Positions 51,043 through 57,921 of a DNA stretch of 64,000 nucleotides are shown piece by piece. Source of the DNA: Archaeoglobaceae archaeon. Lineage in GTDB: Archaea > Halobacteriota > Archaeoglobi > Archaeoglobales > Archaeoglobaceae. Position 1 is the first letter of the stretch. Each line of letters starts with the position of its first letter. The DNA lies in the NCBI GenBank assembly GCA_038734275.1, contig JAVYOO010000007.1:1-64000 (forward strand). Direction: 5' to 3'. The notes under the pieces were generated by a model. That model was not told where the DNA came from and ran no database searches. It saw only the letters and a program-made list of their open reading frames with translations. A program made the position numbers and the translations under genes.

Positions 51043-51372
51043 TCAGAACTCCTTATAGACATCGATGAATCTCTTGTAGAACTCCCATTTTCTTTCATCG
51101 AGCACGTGCAACTCAAAGAAATACCATCTCCGCGAAATCTCTGCCTTGAATTTCAGAATTTTTTCTCTGTCTTTGCAATCGGTGACAATTGCGATGTCGA
51201 CGTCGGAAAGCATCAAGTCGTAATCTCCACGAGCTACTGAGCCAAAGAGAAAAACTCTGCAATTTCCAAAGTAATTCTCAGCAATTCTTTTCAATTCTCT
51301 GAGATGAAACTCGAGATTTCTAAAAATTTCTTCTCTCTTTTTCCTTTCTTCTATCAATCTCTCGACAACCAT
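51043..51372 (-). CDS. MNT nucleotidyltransferase (pair g), intact
   Basis: The 109-residue protein has RVFLFGSVARGDYDLMLSDV with DIAIV, a complete active site, and ends with FFELHVLDERKWEFYKRF, the tail shared by loci c, h and i. The start overlaps the HEPN gene by 19 bases. It is the antitoxin-type half of an intact pair. Confidence 0.88.
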   Translation of the reverse strand: MVVERLIEERKKREEIFRNLEFHLRELKRIAENYFGNCRVFLFGSVARGDYDLMLSDVDIAIVTDCKDREKILKFKAEISRRWYFFELHVLDERKWEFYKRFIDVYKEF

Positions 51373-51740
51373 TCTTTAAACCTCTCCTTGAATTTTTCAA
51401 GAGTATTTATCATCAGCTCCACTTCCTTTTCAGAATAGTCTCTCGGCAAGTATCTCGAAAGGATGTAGGCGTCTTCTATGTCCTTTATTATTATCTCGTT
51501 CTCCTCGTAAAATTCCAAAAAAGATTTATCGAGCTTCGATAAATCGTTAAAAAGCCTTGTTAAACTATGGGTCTTTGGAAAATATCCTAATTCCTTTGCA
51601 AGTATAAATTTTAGGTAAAGCTGTAAAGCCTGCTCAACGTTGAAAGCTGATAAATCAAAGACTTTTGTCCTGTAAAGGTATTTTGCGATTTCTTCAAACT
51701 TTTTAGCTCTTTCAGCGAAGACCTCTATCTCTTCTTTCAC
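51354..51740 (-). CDS. HEPN-domain protein (pair g), intact
   Basis: The 128-residue protein begins MKEEIEVFAERAKKFEEIAK and has AFNVEQALQLYLKFILAKEL, THSLTRLFNDL and a C-terminal AYILSRYLPRDYSEKEVELM, the PF05168 layout. The Rx4-6H motif is not obvious. It overlaps its MNT partner, suggesting joint translation. Confidence 0.85.
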   Translation of the reverse strand: MKEEIEVFAERAKKFEEIAKYLYRTKVFDLSAFNVEQALQLYLKFILAKELGYFPKTHSLTRLFNDLSKLDKSFLEFYEENEIIIKDIEDAYILSRYLPRDYSEKEVELMINTLEKFKERFKEWLSRD

Positions 51741-51782
51741 GTAAACAATTCCGCGCCCAAGTATTTAGCTTTAATGCAGAGA

Positions 51783-52097
51783 TTAAACGACCTTCTCGAA
51801 ATCCTTTCCAACGAACTTCAAAAATTTCTCCCATTTTTCTTTTGTAAGCAGATGAAATTCGAAAGGAGAATCGAAGTATTTGTTAAAAAGCAAATCGTAA
51901 ACCATTAGCCTTTTCTCTCTATTTTCGAACTCGTTTGAAACGATTGCAACGTCAATGTCGCTGAGCCCGATCGAAAAATCACCGCGAATTACAGAGCCGA
52001 GGACAAAGATTTCAAAGTCCTTGCAAATCTTTGAAACGAGTTCAGCAACTTCTTGCAAATATTTCTTGTAATTTTTGAAATACTCTACTCTTTCCAT
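51783..52097 (-). CDS. MNT nucleotidyltransferase (locus h), intact
   Basis: The 104-residue protein has IFVLGSVIRGDFSIGLSDID, an intact site, and PFEFHLLTKEKWEKFLKF. It is a close relative of the MNT at 52431, sharing the FSIGLSDID/YSIGLSDID strand. Its HEPN partner is damaged. Confidence 0.86.
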   Translation of the reverse strand: MERVEYFKNYKKYLQEVAELVSKICKDFEIFVLGSVIRGDFSIGLSDIDVAIVSNEFENREKRLMVYDLLFNKYFDSPFEFHLLTKEKWEKFLKFVGKDFEKVV

Positions 52098-52354
52098 AGC
52101 ATCGCCCTTATTTCTCTCAATGCTTCAAAAGCCCTAAGAACTTCGTCTTCGAAAAATTCCTCAAAGTAGTATCTCGAAGTAATGTAAGCTCTTTCAAGAT
52201 CTCTCATCCAAAAGCTTTGCTTTAATTATCAACTGCATCGCCTGTTCAATATGAAACATTGCGATATCGTAGTCTTTTCTTTCAAAGTTGAACTTGGCGT
52301 TCTCCTCGAACTTCTTTGCTCTTTTAAGGTAAAGTTCAATCTCTTCTTTCACAT
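52080..52354 (-). pseudogene. HEPN protein with internal deletion (locus h)
   Basis: From ATG 52354 the frame encodes MKEEIELYLKRAKKFEENAK and IAMFHIEQAMQLIIKAKLLD and then stops. The other frame resumes as DLERAYITSRYYFEEFFEDE to TAG 52080. Compared with the intact neighbour at 52751-53128, about 34 codons around the THSL region are missing and the join is out of frame. It overlaps its MNT partner's start. Confidence 0.75.
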
Positions 52355-52430
52355 GATTTCTTCAGCAGTCAAATATTTATGTCTTCTCGGTCAAAAGCCT
52401 AAGCTGAGAAGCTTGAATTTATACTATCGA

Positions 52431-52760
52431 TTAAACGCTTCTAAACTTTTTAACAAACCTCTTGTAGTATTCCCATCTCTCCTTCGTCAATACATGGAAC
52501 TCGAATGGCGAATCGAAGAACTTCTCAAGCAGTTCCCCAAAAACTTTCAACTTTAGATCTCTATTCAAAAAGGCGTCGGAAACTATTGCAATGTCTATAT
52601 CGCTCAATCCAATCGAGTAGTTTCCCTCGGCAACTGAACCAAAGAGAAAGAGCTCCGCATCAGGAACCTCTTCTTTTACAATTTTCTTTATTTCGAGCAA
52701 AAAAATCTCGAGATCCTCAAAGTATCTCTTTCTGCGTTCGTAAATGTCTTTCAAGCCCAA
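52431..52760 (-). CDS. MNT nucleotidyltransferase (pair i), intact
   Basis: The 109-residue protein has ELFLFGSVAEGNYSIGLSDI with DIAIV, a complete site, and PFEFHVLTKERWEYYKRF. It overlaps its HEPN partner by 10 bases. High similarity to the locus h protein indicates recent tandem duplication. Confidence 0.88.
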   Translation of the reverse strand: MGLKDIYERRKRYFEDLEIFLLEIKKIVKEEVPDAELFLFGSVAEGNYSIGLSDIDIAIVSDAFLNRDLKLKVFGELLEKFFDSPFEFHVLTKERWEYYKRFVKKFRSV

Positions 52761-53128
52761 ATCAGATCCCTCAACGCTTTATACATTTTTAAAGCTTCTT
52801 CAACCTCTTCTTTCCGGAACTCCTCTGGATAATATCGTGAAGAAAGATAAGCAAATTCGAGGCTTCTCAGCGTGTTCCAATTCTCCTTTAAAAACTCATT
52901 GAGTTCTTCATGCAAAAAAATTTCTGACAGTCCCTCTATTAGCTTCCTTAAGCTGTGCGTTTTTTCGAAGTAGCCAGTCAGATCCAAAAGCTTTGCCTTC
53001 AAAATCAACTGACAAGCCTGCTCAACGTGAAACATAGCCAAATCATAATCTCCTCTTTTCAGATCTTCGTTTGCATCTTTTATAAACCCTTCTGCACGTC
53101 TCAAAAATACCTCGATCTCTTTTTTCAT
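52751..53128 (-). CDS. HEPN-domain protein (pair i), intact
   Basis: The 125-residue protein begins MKKEIEVFLRRAEGFIKDAN and has LAMFHVEQACQLILKAKLLD, EKTHSLRKLIEGLSE and LSSRYYPEEFRKEEVEEAL. It belongs to the same subtype as loci g and h. No clear Rx4-6H motif is present. The pair is complete and transcribed HEPN first. Confidence 0.86.
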   Translation of the reverse strand: MKKEIEVFLRRAEGFIKDANEDLKRGDYDLAMFHVEQACQLILKAKLLDLTGYFEKTHSLRKLIEGLSEIFLHEELNEFLKENWNTLRSLEFAYLSSRYYPEEFRKEEVEEALKMYKALRDLIWA

Positions 53129-53269
53129 CTAAATAAGAAAACGAAGAAAAAATAAAAATCTTTTGCAAACTCATCAGCTTTGCAAGGCTATTGAAGAACG
53201 AGTTTCAGTTGTCAGAAAAATTTTTATTTTTTAGGAAACAGGAATTAAAAAGAGTAATCTGCTTTGGAT

Positions 53270-53683
53270 ATGAGAAGAGAAACGGAGCTATGGCTGAGAA
53301 CAGCTGAGGAGGATCTTGTGGATTCAAAATCATTTTTGGCGAGTAAAAGATATTTTCGAAGTGCTTTTTTTGCTCAACAGGCAGTTGAAAAAGTCCTAAA
53401 AGCTCTTTTCATCGAAATAGCAAGAGAGGATCCGCCAAAAATTCACAGTGTTACGGAACTTTACGGAATTTTAAAGGAAAAAACAGAATTCAGGCTTCCA
53501 GATGAACTTGAAGAGCAGTTGTTTGTTTTGAACAAATACTACACGGTCTCAAGGTATCCCGACGCTGCCAATGGACTACCTTCGGAAAGCGTTGATAGAA
53601 TCGAAGCGGAAAGAGCTTTAAAAATAGCGGAAGAGATCTTTGATTATGCAAGAAGTTTTATCAGAAATAAAGAGAAAAGCTGA
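53270..53683 (+). CDS. HEPN-domain protein (pair j), intact
   Basis: The 137-residue protein starts at ATG 53270 (a TTG at 53264 is also in frame). It has SAFFAQQAVEKVLKALFIEI, then REDPPKIHSVTELYG, giving an Arg-x6-His motif, and YTVSRYPDAANGLPSESVD. It most resembles pair b at 40472. It overlaps its MNT partner by about 38 bases. Confidence 0.86.
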   Translation: MRRETELWLRTAEEDLVDSKSFLASKRYFRSAFFAQQAVEKVLKALFIEIAREDPPKIHSVTELYGILKEKTEFRLPDELEEQLFVLNKYYTVSRYPDAANGLPSESVDRIEAERALKIAEEIFDYARSFIRNKEKS

Positions 53684-53972
53684 GATTTTAAAGGGCGAGC
53701 TCGAGAAAAGGGGTTTTATAGTTGATTCAATCTATCTTTTCGGTAGCTACGCAAAAGGGAATTGGTTAAAAACGAGTGACGTGGATTTGATTGTAATCTC
53801 AGATGGTTTTGAAAAAATGAAGTTTCTCAAGCGATTGGATCTCGTGAATGAAATTGTCTGGGAAAAAGAGCTTGGAAATTTGGAAGTCTTACCGTTCACG
53901 AGTGTGGAAGTTGAAAAAGAAGTTTCTACGGTGCTAAGAGATGCGAAGAAGTATTGGATAAAAATTATTTAA
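53646..53972 (+). CDS. MNT nucleotidyltransferase (pair j), intact
   Basis: The 108-residue protein has IYLFGSYAKGNWLKTSDVDL, an intact active site, and LEVLPFTSVEVEKEVSTVL. ATG 53646 is chosen; a TTG at 53640 is in frame. The WLKTSDVDL strand resembles YLKTSDFDL of pair b, so b and j are sister modules at opposite ends of the island. Confidence 0.87.
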   Translation: MQEVLSEIKRKAEILKGELEKRGFIVDSIYLFGSYAKGNWLKTSDVDLIVISDGFEKMKFLKRLDLVNEIVWEKELGNLEVLPFTSVEVEKEVSTVLRDAKKYWIKII

Positions 53973-56329: not shown

Positions 56330-56540
56330 GTCAAGCAATTTTGTTCTAACGAAATTCTTCGGAAAAGCGACTAATGGCTTATTAGAACCCCATACAATTT
56401 TTTTATGCTAAAAATCAACTTTGGAATATTGCATTTCGCTTTTAATGGGATTAGAGTAAAAATTCACTGCTCAGAGCCCAAAACTTCGCTTAAGCTGAAA
56501 TTAAAAAATTCTTGATTTCAAATCAAGATAATTAGAAAAG

Positions 56541-56549
56541 CTTATATAC
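56541..56549 (+). promoter_or_regulatory. TATA box of the precursor peptide gene
   Basis: CTTATATAC, preceded by AGAAAAG (BRE-like), ends 20 bases before ATG 56570. Transcription should start at or next to that ATG, so the mRNA would be leaderless. Confidence 0.65.
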
Positions 56550-56569
56550 TGCCTTGTCAAACGAATAAC

Positions 56570-56650
56570 ATGGCGGTTGCTTTCCAATTTGAGTGCGAAG
56601 TCGGAGGAGGACTTACCCATTACATAATGGGAGAGGATTCCCCATTTTAA
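56570..56650 (+). CDS. 26-residue candidate RiPP precursor peptide
   Basis: From ATG 56570 a 26-codon frame encodes MAVAFQFECEVGGG, then LTHYIMGEDSPF and TAA. It holds one Cys (residue 9), a Gly triplet, and the His-Tyr and Asp-Ser-Pro-Phe features. It sits 17 bases before a radical SAM/SPASM gene with a TATA box placed for leaderless transcription. I recall a family named CbpA with its modifying enzyme CbpB in which a short peptide precedes such a protein, and the match seems good but must be checked. The short spacer holds TTTTGAGGTGTTTTT, the ribosome site of the next gene. Confidence 0.65.
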   Translation: MAVAFQFECEVGGGLTHYIMGEDSPF

Positions 56651-56667
56651 TTTTTTGAGGTGTTTTT

Positions 56668-57921
56668 ATGGCGTTGCAAAACACTAAGATCGATGACTTT
56701 GGATTGGCAATTGATCCTGAGACTAATTTTTGGAGTATTTATGACTCTGAAATTCCCGAAGAAATTCTGAGGCTATATGATCAGCGGAGAGAAGAGCTAA
56801 AGGAAAAAATGCAAAGATACCGTTTTGAAGTCAATTTCAACACCGTCTACGTTAATCCAACTGAAAGGTGCAACGCAAACTGCCCCTATTGCTACATTCC
56901 TGAGAAGCTCAGGAAAAAGGGAGAACAAATGAGTTCGAATGAGCTTGAATCTTTTGTTGAAAGAATTGTGGAGCTTGGAATAAAGAACGTGATCTTTCAC
57001 GGTGCGGAGCCCCTTTTAATGAAAAATAAGCTCTTTGAATTAATTGAAAACAATCCAGAAATGAGCTTCGGAATTCAGACAAATGGATTTCTGCTAACTG
57101 AAGAAGATGCGGATTTTTTGAGGCAAAAGAACGTCAACGTCGGGATCTCTTTTGATTCCCCTGTGAGAGAAATTGAAGATTTTTTGAGAGGCAAAGGGCA
57201 TTTTGACAAGGCAAACGAGATCATAGACTGGTTTTCTGGTTATCGAAAATTCAACGTTATTACGACAATAACAAGGTTTAACTACTCTCAGCTAAGCGAT
57301 CTGATCGATTTCCTTGCAGGAAAGGTGAGAGTTGTTTTAATGAACCCTGTAAGAGGAACAAGTCAAGGCGGTAGGAAGCTAAGAGCTGATCCTAAGGAGG
57401 CGAGTGCTGAATTTATAAAGGCGGTCGAAAGGGCGATCTGGCACACGAAGAACGGAAGAAGAATCGTAATTGGCGACTTTGCAAACATTGTCCTTGGGAT
57501 CGTTGCACCTTACTCAAGGGTGCTTCAGTGTGATATTTCGCCGTGCGGCGGAGGAAGGAGATTTTTCGCTTTAACTCCAGAGGGAATCTTCCCTTGTAGT
57601 GAGTTTGTTGGAATTGAAGAATTCAAAATACCAATTGAGGCTTTGAAAGACCCTGTTAAGCTAAGCAAGAGCTTAGGAGCTATTAGGGTTAGGACTGTTG
57701 AGAGAATTGAGGAATGCAGAGACTGCATTTACAGAAACGTCTGCGGAAGTCCTTGTCCAGCGGAGGTTTACGCCGAAAAGGGCACTTTTTTCAGCAAAAG
57801 TCCCTACTGCGAGTTCTACAAGGCTTTGATAGAGCATGCGTTCCGTGTAATAAGGCGTGGAGACGTTGAGAGCGTTGTAGAGCTTGGAAAGATGAAGAAG
57901 GTTTACGAGATTAGAAATTAA
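56668..57921 (+). CDS. Radical SAM/SPASM peptide-modifying protein (CbpB-like)
   Basis: The 417-residue protein has an N-terminal extension of about 55 residues, then ERCNANCPYCY with Cys68, Cys72 and Cys75, FHGAEPLLM, QTNGFLL and SFDSPV. The C-terminal SPASM-type cysteines occur in CDISPCGGG, FPCSEFVG, CRDCIYRNVCGSPCP and YCEF. This is the layout of enzymes that bind auxiliary [4Fe-4S] clusters and modify ribosomal peptides. A GAGGTG ribosome site precedes ATG 56668. The peptide gene just upstream is the obvious substrate candidate. Confidence 0.85.
   Translation: MALQNTKIDDFGLAIDPETNFWSIYDSEIPEEILRLYDQRREELKEKMQRYRFEVNFNTVYVNPTERCNANCPYCYIPEKLRKKGEQMSSNELESFVERIVELGIKNVIFHGAEPLLMKNKLFELIENNPEMSFGIQTNGFLLTEEDADFLRQKNVNVGISFDSPVREIEDFLRGKGHFDKANEIIDWFSGYRKFNVITTITRFNYSQLSDLIDFLAGKVRVVLMNPVRGTSQGGRKLRADPKEASAEFIKAVERAIWHTKNGRRIVIGDFANIVLGIVAPYSRVLQCDISPCGGGRRFFALTPEGIFPCSEFVGIEEFKIPIEALKDPVKLSKSLGAIRVRTVERIEECRDCIYRNVCGSPCPAEVYAEKGTFFSKSPYCEFYKALIEHAFRVIRRGDVESVVELGKMKKVYEIRN

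Follow-up and report, generated by a model that had tools for sequence, protein, structure and literature searches.

A 64,000-nucleotide stretch of an Archaeoglobaceae genome (contig JAVYOO010000007.1; "the window" below means this whole stretch) encodes a short peptide, CbpA, and directly downstream its predicted radical SAM/SPASM maturase, CbpB. We read the pair, with moderate confidence and from sequence comparison, as a known RiPP-type cassette that is probably intracellular and is linked to cobamide nucleotide-loop metabolism. The cassette falls in a known family, with a peptide that has diverged; what is new here is an operator that cbpA has in common with cobT in relatives. The family models carry the names "cobopep" and "cobo_pep", perhaps a sign that their authors had already noticed a cobalamin link. 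A literature search by model name found no papers naming TIGR04163 or TIGR04164.

The enzyme is the firmer half of the assignment. The cbpB gene (56668..57921, forward strand) encodes 417 residues, and its top match by hmmscan is the NCBIfam CbpB maturase model TIGR04163, at 472.5 bits (E 1.1e-141) against an equivalog cut-off of 375; Pfam finds the Radical_SAM domain (PF04055, 88.5 bits) and no recognition domain. CbpB has both cysteine sets that mark a radical SAM/SPASM maturase, a CxxxCxxC motif at C68, C72 and C75 and SPASM cysteines at C288, C293, C310, C350, C353, C359, C363 and C381, with Cx2Cx5Cx3C read directly in the SPASM region, and each of the 11 is retained in 40 or 41 of 41 homologues. 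(The CbpB of genome G076 has lost one SPASM cysteine.) An AlphaFold model built from four sequences reached pLDDT 55, too weak for a fold search. Among the next-best profiles, those for PapB-type ranthipeptide maturases (NF047865) and anaerobic sulfatase maturases (TIGR03942) describe the same radical SAM plus SPASM architecture, but CbpB falls far under their cut-offs (94 versus 340 bits and 91 versus 349 bits), and unlike those systems cbpAB has no multi-cysteine precursor and no sulfatase target.

The peptide gene, cbpA (56570..56650, forward strand), starts with an ATG at 56570, runs for 26 codons to a stop at 56648-56650, and encodes MAVAFQFECEVGGGLTHYIMGEDSPF; the 17-nt gap that the first-pass annotation described between this frame and the SPASM-type gene is there when read directly, from 56650 to the cbpB ATG at 56668. 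That annotation also named the CbpA/CbpB group as a possible home for the pair, correctly on both sides, in that the enzyme is above its cut-off and TIGR04164, the CbpA precursor model, is the sole family that the window peptide matches (hmmscan), albeit at 19.9 bits (E 3.7e-4) where the cut-off is 35. We take the peptide to be a diverged CbpA homologue, outside the curated membership rule. All 35 archaeal peptides scanned, the window's included, match TIGR04164 at E<=0.1 (best 1.3e-16), and the window peptide is collinear with the model, its gene lying directly upstream of cbpB. Compared with TIGR04164 members it has the SPF tail and is without the N-terminal extension of the Methylovirgula CbpA.

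Across the Halobacteriota (alignment A1) Cys9, Gly14, Leu15 and His17 of CbpA are invariant, Gly13 and the final Phe are nearly so, and the core can be written C-x(3-5)-[GA]-GL-[TS]-H-[YF]. The single cysteine and the glycine triplet noted at first reading are both present in the window, but only two of the three glycines are general. The ending THYIMGEDSPF is likewise present, but the conservation supposed for it does not hold for SPF, which is missing in G076 (where the peptide stops at GGLTHFV) and in the alphaproteobacterial CbpA, MKHTIDTKSGAPTKPRPDVIAIRKTCAAEGTGLSHYVLMDKQVKR, whose core is largely kept, and is altered in family f7. The core tyrosine is phenylalanine in family f9 and in G076 (alignment A1), so tyrosine phenol chemistry of the PQQ kind is not general for CbpA. 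In 294 of 351 Archaeoglobi pairs CbpA is better conserved than CbpB (means 62.5% versus 55.8%), and the cbpA genes of the window and of G054, in the same genus, differ in 12 codons synonymously and in 2 non-synonymously.

Peptide and enzyme occur together or not at all. TIGR04163 is matched above cut-off in 28 of 59 Archaeoglobi genomes, and a short frame with a GGLTHY-type core stands just upstream of cbpB in every one of them (in G039 it is split by a frameshift), so that 28 genomes have both genes and 31 have neither; since the genomes compared are related, these counts are not independent data. The peptide gene is thus directly upstream and kept wherever cbpB is kept, 28/28 versus 0/31, as expected of a cassette and as shows the 26-residue frame to be a real gene. 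The first-pass annotation had proposed exactly this search beside homologous SPASM genes in other genomes, and had named as its refutation an unconserved peptide in relatives retaining the enzyme, which is the opposite of what the 28 loci show. A peptide-profile search of the 59 genomes finds one real copy in each of the 28, at the cbpB locus only, and no real cbpA copy in the 31 genomes lacking cbpB. (Matches to ORFs of about 1,190 residues in five genomes were set aside as chance, the two that were read being NarG-like nitrate reductases with GLAHYV; other weak matches were the reverse strand of the cbpAB locus itself and one further chance match.) Outside the Archaeoglobi the two genes are again found together, in 12 genomes of other Halobacteriota families (G158 looks damaged) and on an alphaproteobacterial plasmid.

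The link to cobamides comes from regulation. In relatives, a 22-bp palindrome, TTGTATTAC-N4-GTAATACAA, occurs upstream of cbpA, upstream of cobT, and in a few genomes upstream of a gene for a ribbon-helix-helix (RHH) domain fused to an AIRS-like domain (RHH-AIRS). All 14 Archaeoglobi with both the RHH-AIRS gene and cbpB carry it at cbpA (15.5-30.7 bits), its centre mostly 48-51 nt before the gene, and none of the 14 without the protein does (at most 0.5 bits); these scores are leave-genus-out, the test genome's genus being omitted from the matrix. In family f7 an upstream ATG, read directly in the sequence, would lengthen CbpA and put the operator at about -48, as elsewhere. Genome-wide matches to the operator pattern fell in front of cobT. 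Trained on cbpA operators only, a position weight matrix detects a site ahead of cobT, 55-60 nt from its estimated start, in 17 of the 18 genomes that have the RHH-AIRS protein and in none of the 12 that lack it; three further genomes with the protein (G055, G031 and G005) and one further without (G040) follow suit, making 20 of 21 versus 0 of 13, with G053 the one exception. In G003 and G002 the RHH-AIRS gene is itself preceded by a site. Across the phylum sample the operator is rare even at one mismatch or fewer, and every genome with the exact pattern TTGNATTAC-N4-GTAATNCAA also has an RHH-AIRS gene or a fragment of it. G056 (L203, 1715-2967) has the operator before an ECF-transporter S-component (PF12822) and a stand-alone AIRS protein (PF00586), a pair whose layout we take to resemble that of the alpha-ribazole uptake and kinase pair CblT/CblS. 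Separately, an 18.6-bit site in G025 stands before a 118-residue hypothetical protein, a possible regulon member.

Going by this co-occurrence, the simplest reading would have the RHH-AIRS protein bind the operator and regulate cobT and cbpAB together, although shared regulation of cbpA and cobT is not proof of a shared pathway. Two other associations were rejected: cobT does not track cbpB, being widespread with or without it, and the RHH-AIRS gene tracks the operator, not cbpB. Because cobT and the RHH-AIRS gene also occur in genomes without cbpAB, the cassette is accessory to their regulon, and the regulator is missing from half of the cbpAB-bearing Archaeoglobi. The RHH-AIRS profile has no match in PDB, and a search of Rfam gave no matches. 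A predicted archaeal cobalamin regulon in Pyrococcus, CblR, whose regulator is not known, is mentioned in PMC10746257; it and the RHH-AIRS regulon proposed here would both be archaeal cobamide regulons under a DNA-binding regulator.

Gene neighbourhoods point the same way, although neighbour clustering finds no partner common to all cbpAB loci. In families f7 and f9 cbpAB lies between a bacterial-type cobT (PF02277, 456 bits) and a divergent RHH-AIRS gene, whose product has an RHH_1 DNA-binding domain and an AIRS-like domain; cobT encodes the cobamide lower-ligand phosphoribosyltransferase. In G062 and G082, which are without cbpAB, the RHH-AIRS gene and cobT adjoin. An archaeal cobT (TIGR00303, 381 bits) is found about 1.3 kb downstream of cbpB in G039, and the RHH-AIRS gene of G053, a member of the window's genus, neighbours cbpB. 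Elsewhere RHH-AIRS genes are near CbiM-, CobQ/CbiA- or siroheme-synthase-like genes, mostly identified by eye; loci with corrinoid genes nearby are L140, L155 (G051), L156 (G001), L207 (G003) and L209 (G002), besides those of f7 and f9. As to other neighbours, two MetE-like genes (possible core methionine synthase) are directly upstream of cbpAB in G076 (L073), and the window has upstream of cbpAB, at 51043-53972, a tandem array of what by eye are apparently four HEPN/nucleotidyltransferase (MNT) pairs, one with a truncated HEPN partner at 52194-52352, a putative cluster of toxin-antitoxin modules.

A bacterial locus complicates this picture. Plasmid pHY1 of Methylovirgula sp. HY1 (L164, 11762-16711) carries cbpAB, annotated as cbpA and cbpB with a CbpA of 45 residues, about 2-3 kb from pqqA, pqqD and pqqE and not near annotated cobamide genes, which would suit an explanation in which CbpA and CbpB yield a peptide cofactor with a redox or metal-binding role and no relation to cobamides, co-regulation with cobT being indirect (through cobalt, iron or growth mode, for example). 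PqqA/PqqE and MftA/MftC likewise pair a short conserved precursor with a SPASM maturase and give an intracellular cofactor product; cbpAB, with no exporter, follows the logic of these PQQ and mycofactocin systems, and the invariant cysteine and histidine of CbpA could bind metal. Unlike those pairs, however, cbpAB has no recognition-domain partner gene that we could find beside it. Against a product unrelated to cobamides stand the rarity of the operator and its confinement, at zero mismatches, to genomes with the RHH-AIRS gene or its remnant, together with the corrinoid character of the genes (mostly assigned by eye) around RHH-AIRS, so that we consider this explanation rather unlikely.

The distribution of the cassette raises another alternative, that modified CbpA serves as an antimicrobial or a signal, with export and trimming left to proteins encoded elsewhere in the genome. 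The layout of precursor and maturase would fit. Presence of cbpAB is patchy inside genera, and the CbpB tree partly conflicts with taxonomy, G076 grouping with G032 and G014 with family f9, which suggests transfer and so perhaps an exchanged accessory trait. But cbpAB has no recurrent neighbour encoding an exporter, a protease or an immunity function (the absence of an adjacent protease or exporter, remarked on at first reading of the window, extends to the pair throughout the Archaeoglobi, where no conserved extra partner is found either), the short Archaeoglobi peptides leave no room for a secretion or double-glycine leader, and each genome has one conserved CbpA copy and not a diversifying family. 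The operator common to cbpA and cobT is also hard to square with secretion, and we regard a secreted product as improbable.

The promoter region of the window gives some idea of how the cassette would be expressed. A TATA box, CTTATATA (56541..56548, forward strand), starts 29 nt before the cbpA ATG, the correct spacing already claimed for it and that expected for a leaderless archaeal transcript, so the cbpA message is probably leaderless; TATA-like octamers at about -27 to -30 are seen in many cbpA relatives, though not all. A run of six T (56651..56656, forward strand) directly follows the cbpA stop and is followed in turn by a Shine-Dalgarno sequence for cbpB, GAGGTG (56657..56662, forward strand), with a similar element before cbpB in most relatives. 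At least five T lie within 18 nt of this stop codon in 25 of the 28 Archaeoglobi, versus 16 of 131 control gene ends (those closely followed by a same-strand ORF; here too the genomes are related and the counts not independent). Intrinsic termination in archaea has a U-tract at its core, and the T-tract is plausibly a partial terminator that would give more peptide than enzyme. That CbpA is instead a regulatory upstream ORF, an attenuator leader peptide for read-through into cbpB and not a substrate, would suit a short frame just before cbpB with this T-tract after its stop, but is very improbable given that Cys and GLxH are retained and the core is recognisable even in a bacterium, that the spacing differs in f7 and f9 and f7 is without the T-tract, that in many relatives the unit already has a nearby operator of the cobT type to control it, and that CbpB comes from a SPASM family whose enzymes modify peptides.

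Directly upstream of the promoter the window has a perfect palindrome, TCTTGATTTCAAATCAAGA (56510..56528), in the position where relatives carry the TTGTATTAC-N4-GTAATACAA operator; it is a putative operator of the window's own clade. G000 and G052 carry it, G054 has a near-copy, and in G050 it has diverged. The only zero-mismatch copy of its 15-mer TTGATTTCAAATCAA in G000, G052 and G054 is the one at cbpA, and the palindrome, sought at other genes, has an exact copy at cbpA only. Neither the RHH-AIRS gene nor the relatives' operator was found in the window genome, whereas 14 Archaeoglobi relatives have both regulator gene and operator upstream of cbpA; for the window genome the cobamide link is therefore one of homology only. 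It would appear that the window's clade has changed its regulator, and a different palindrome there occupies the operator's place.

From these elements a working model can be put together. A leaderless message from the TATA promoter would be translated into the 26-residue CbpA and, past the T-tract, into CbpB from its own Shine-Dalgarno. As judged from its enzyme family, CbpB would reductively cleave SAM at the CxxxCxxC cluster to form a 5'-deoxyadenosyl radical, and the auxiliary SPASM clusters would support an oxidative modification within the C-x(3-5)-[GA]-GL-[TS]-H-[YF] core. The likeliest guess is a thioether joining the invariant cysteine to a core residue, at its backbone or its side chain; the cysteine is compatible with a sactipeptide or ranthipeptide (Cys thioether to an alpha, beta or gamma carbon). 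The modified product would act inside the cell, as its single copy, its conservation, the lack of an exporter and its co-regulation suggest, and would serve cobamide nucleotide-loop (lower-ligand) metabolism, made under RHH-AIRS control in the same conditions as CobT, a role that we infer from the operators and gene neighbourhoods of relatives.

A more specific version of this model has CbpB turn CbpA into a compound that itself enters cobamide assembly, for example a lower ligand derived from the peptide, the precursor of one, or a peptide that handles corrinoids or cobalt and is used with CobT. The source of the lower ligand in Archaeoglobi leaves room for such a compound, since BluB never scores above cut-off, with or without cbpB, and each genome has one full-length ThiC and no second full-length ThiC-type gene such as the known anaerobic benzimidazole pathway uses. 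(That CbpAB replaces the known benzimidazole route was considered and rejected, as ThiC and BluB show no contrast between genomes with and without cbpB.) The occurrence of cobT and the regulator without cbpAB, and the bacterial pair near pqqADE, count against direct feeding of cobamide assembly, and we give this version only a slim chance.

Finding the cbpA/cobT operator in some twenty genomes turns a peptide cassette into a specific hypothesis, that a ribosomal peptide is tied to nucleotide-loop assembly of archaeal cobamides. It also nominates the RHH domain fused to an AIRS-like domain as an archaeal cobamide regulator, a candidate for the Halobacteriota.
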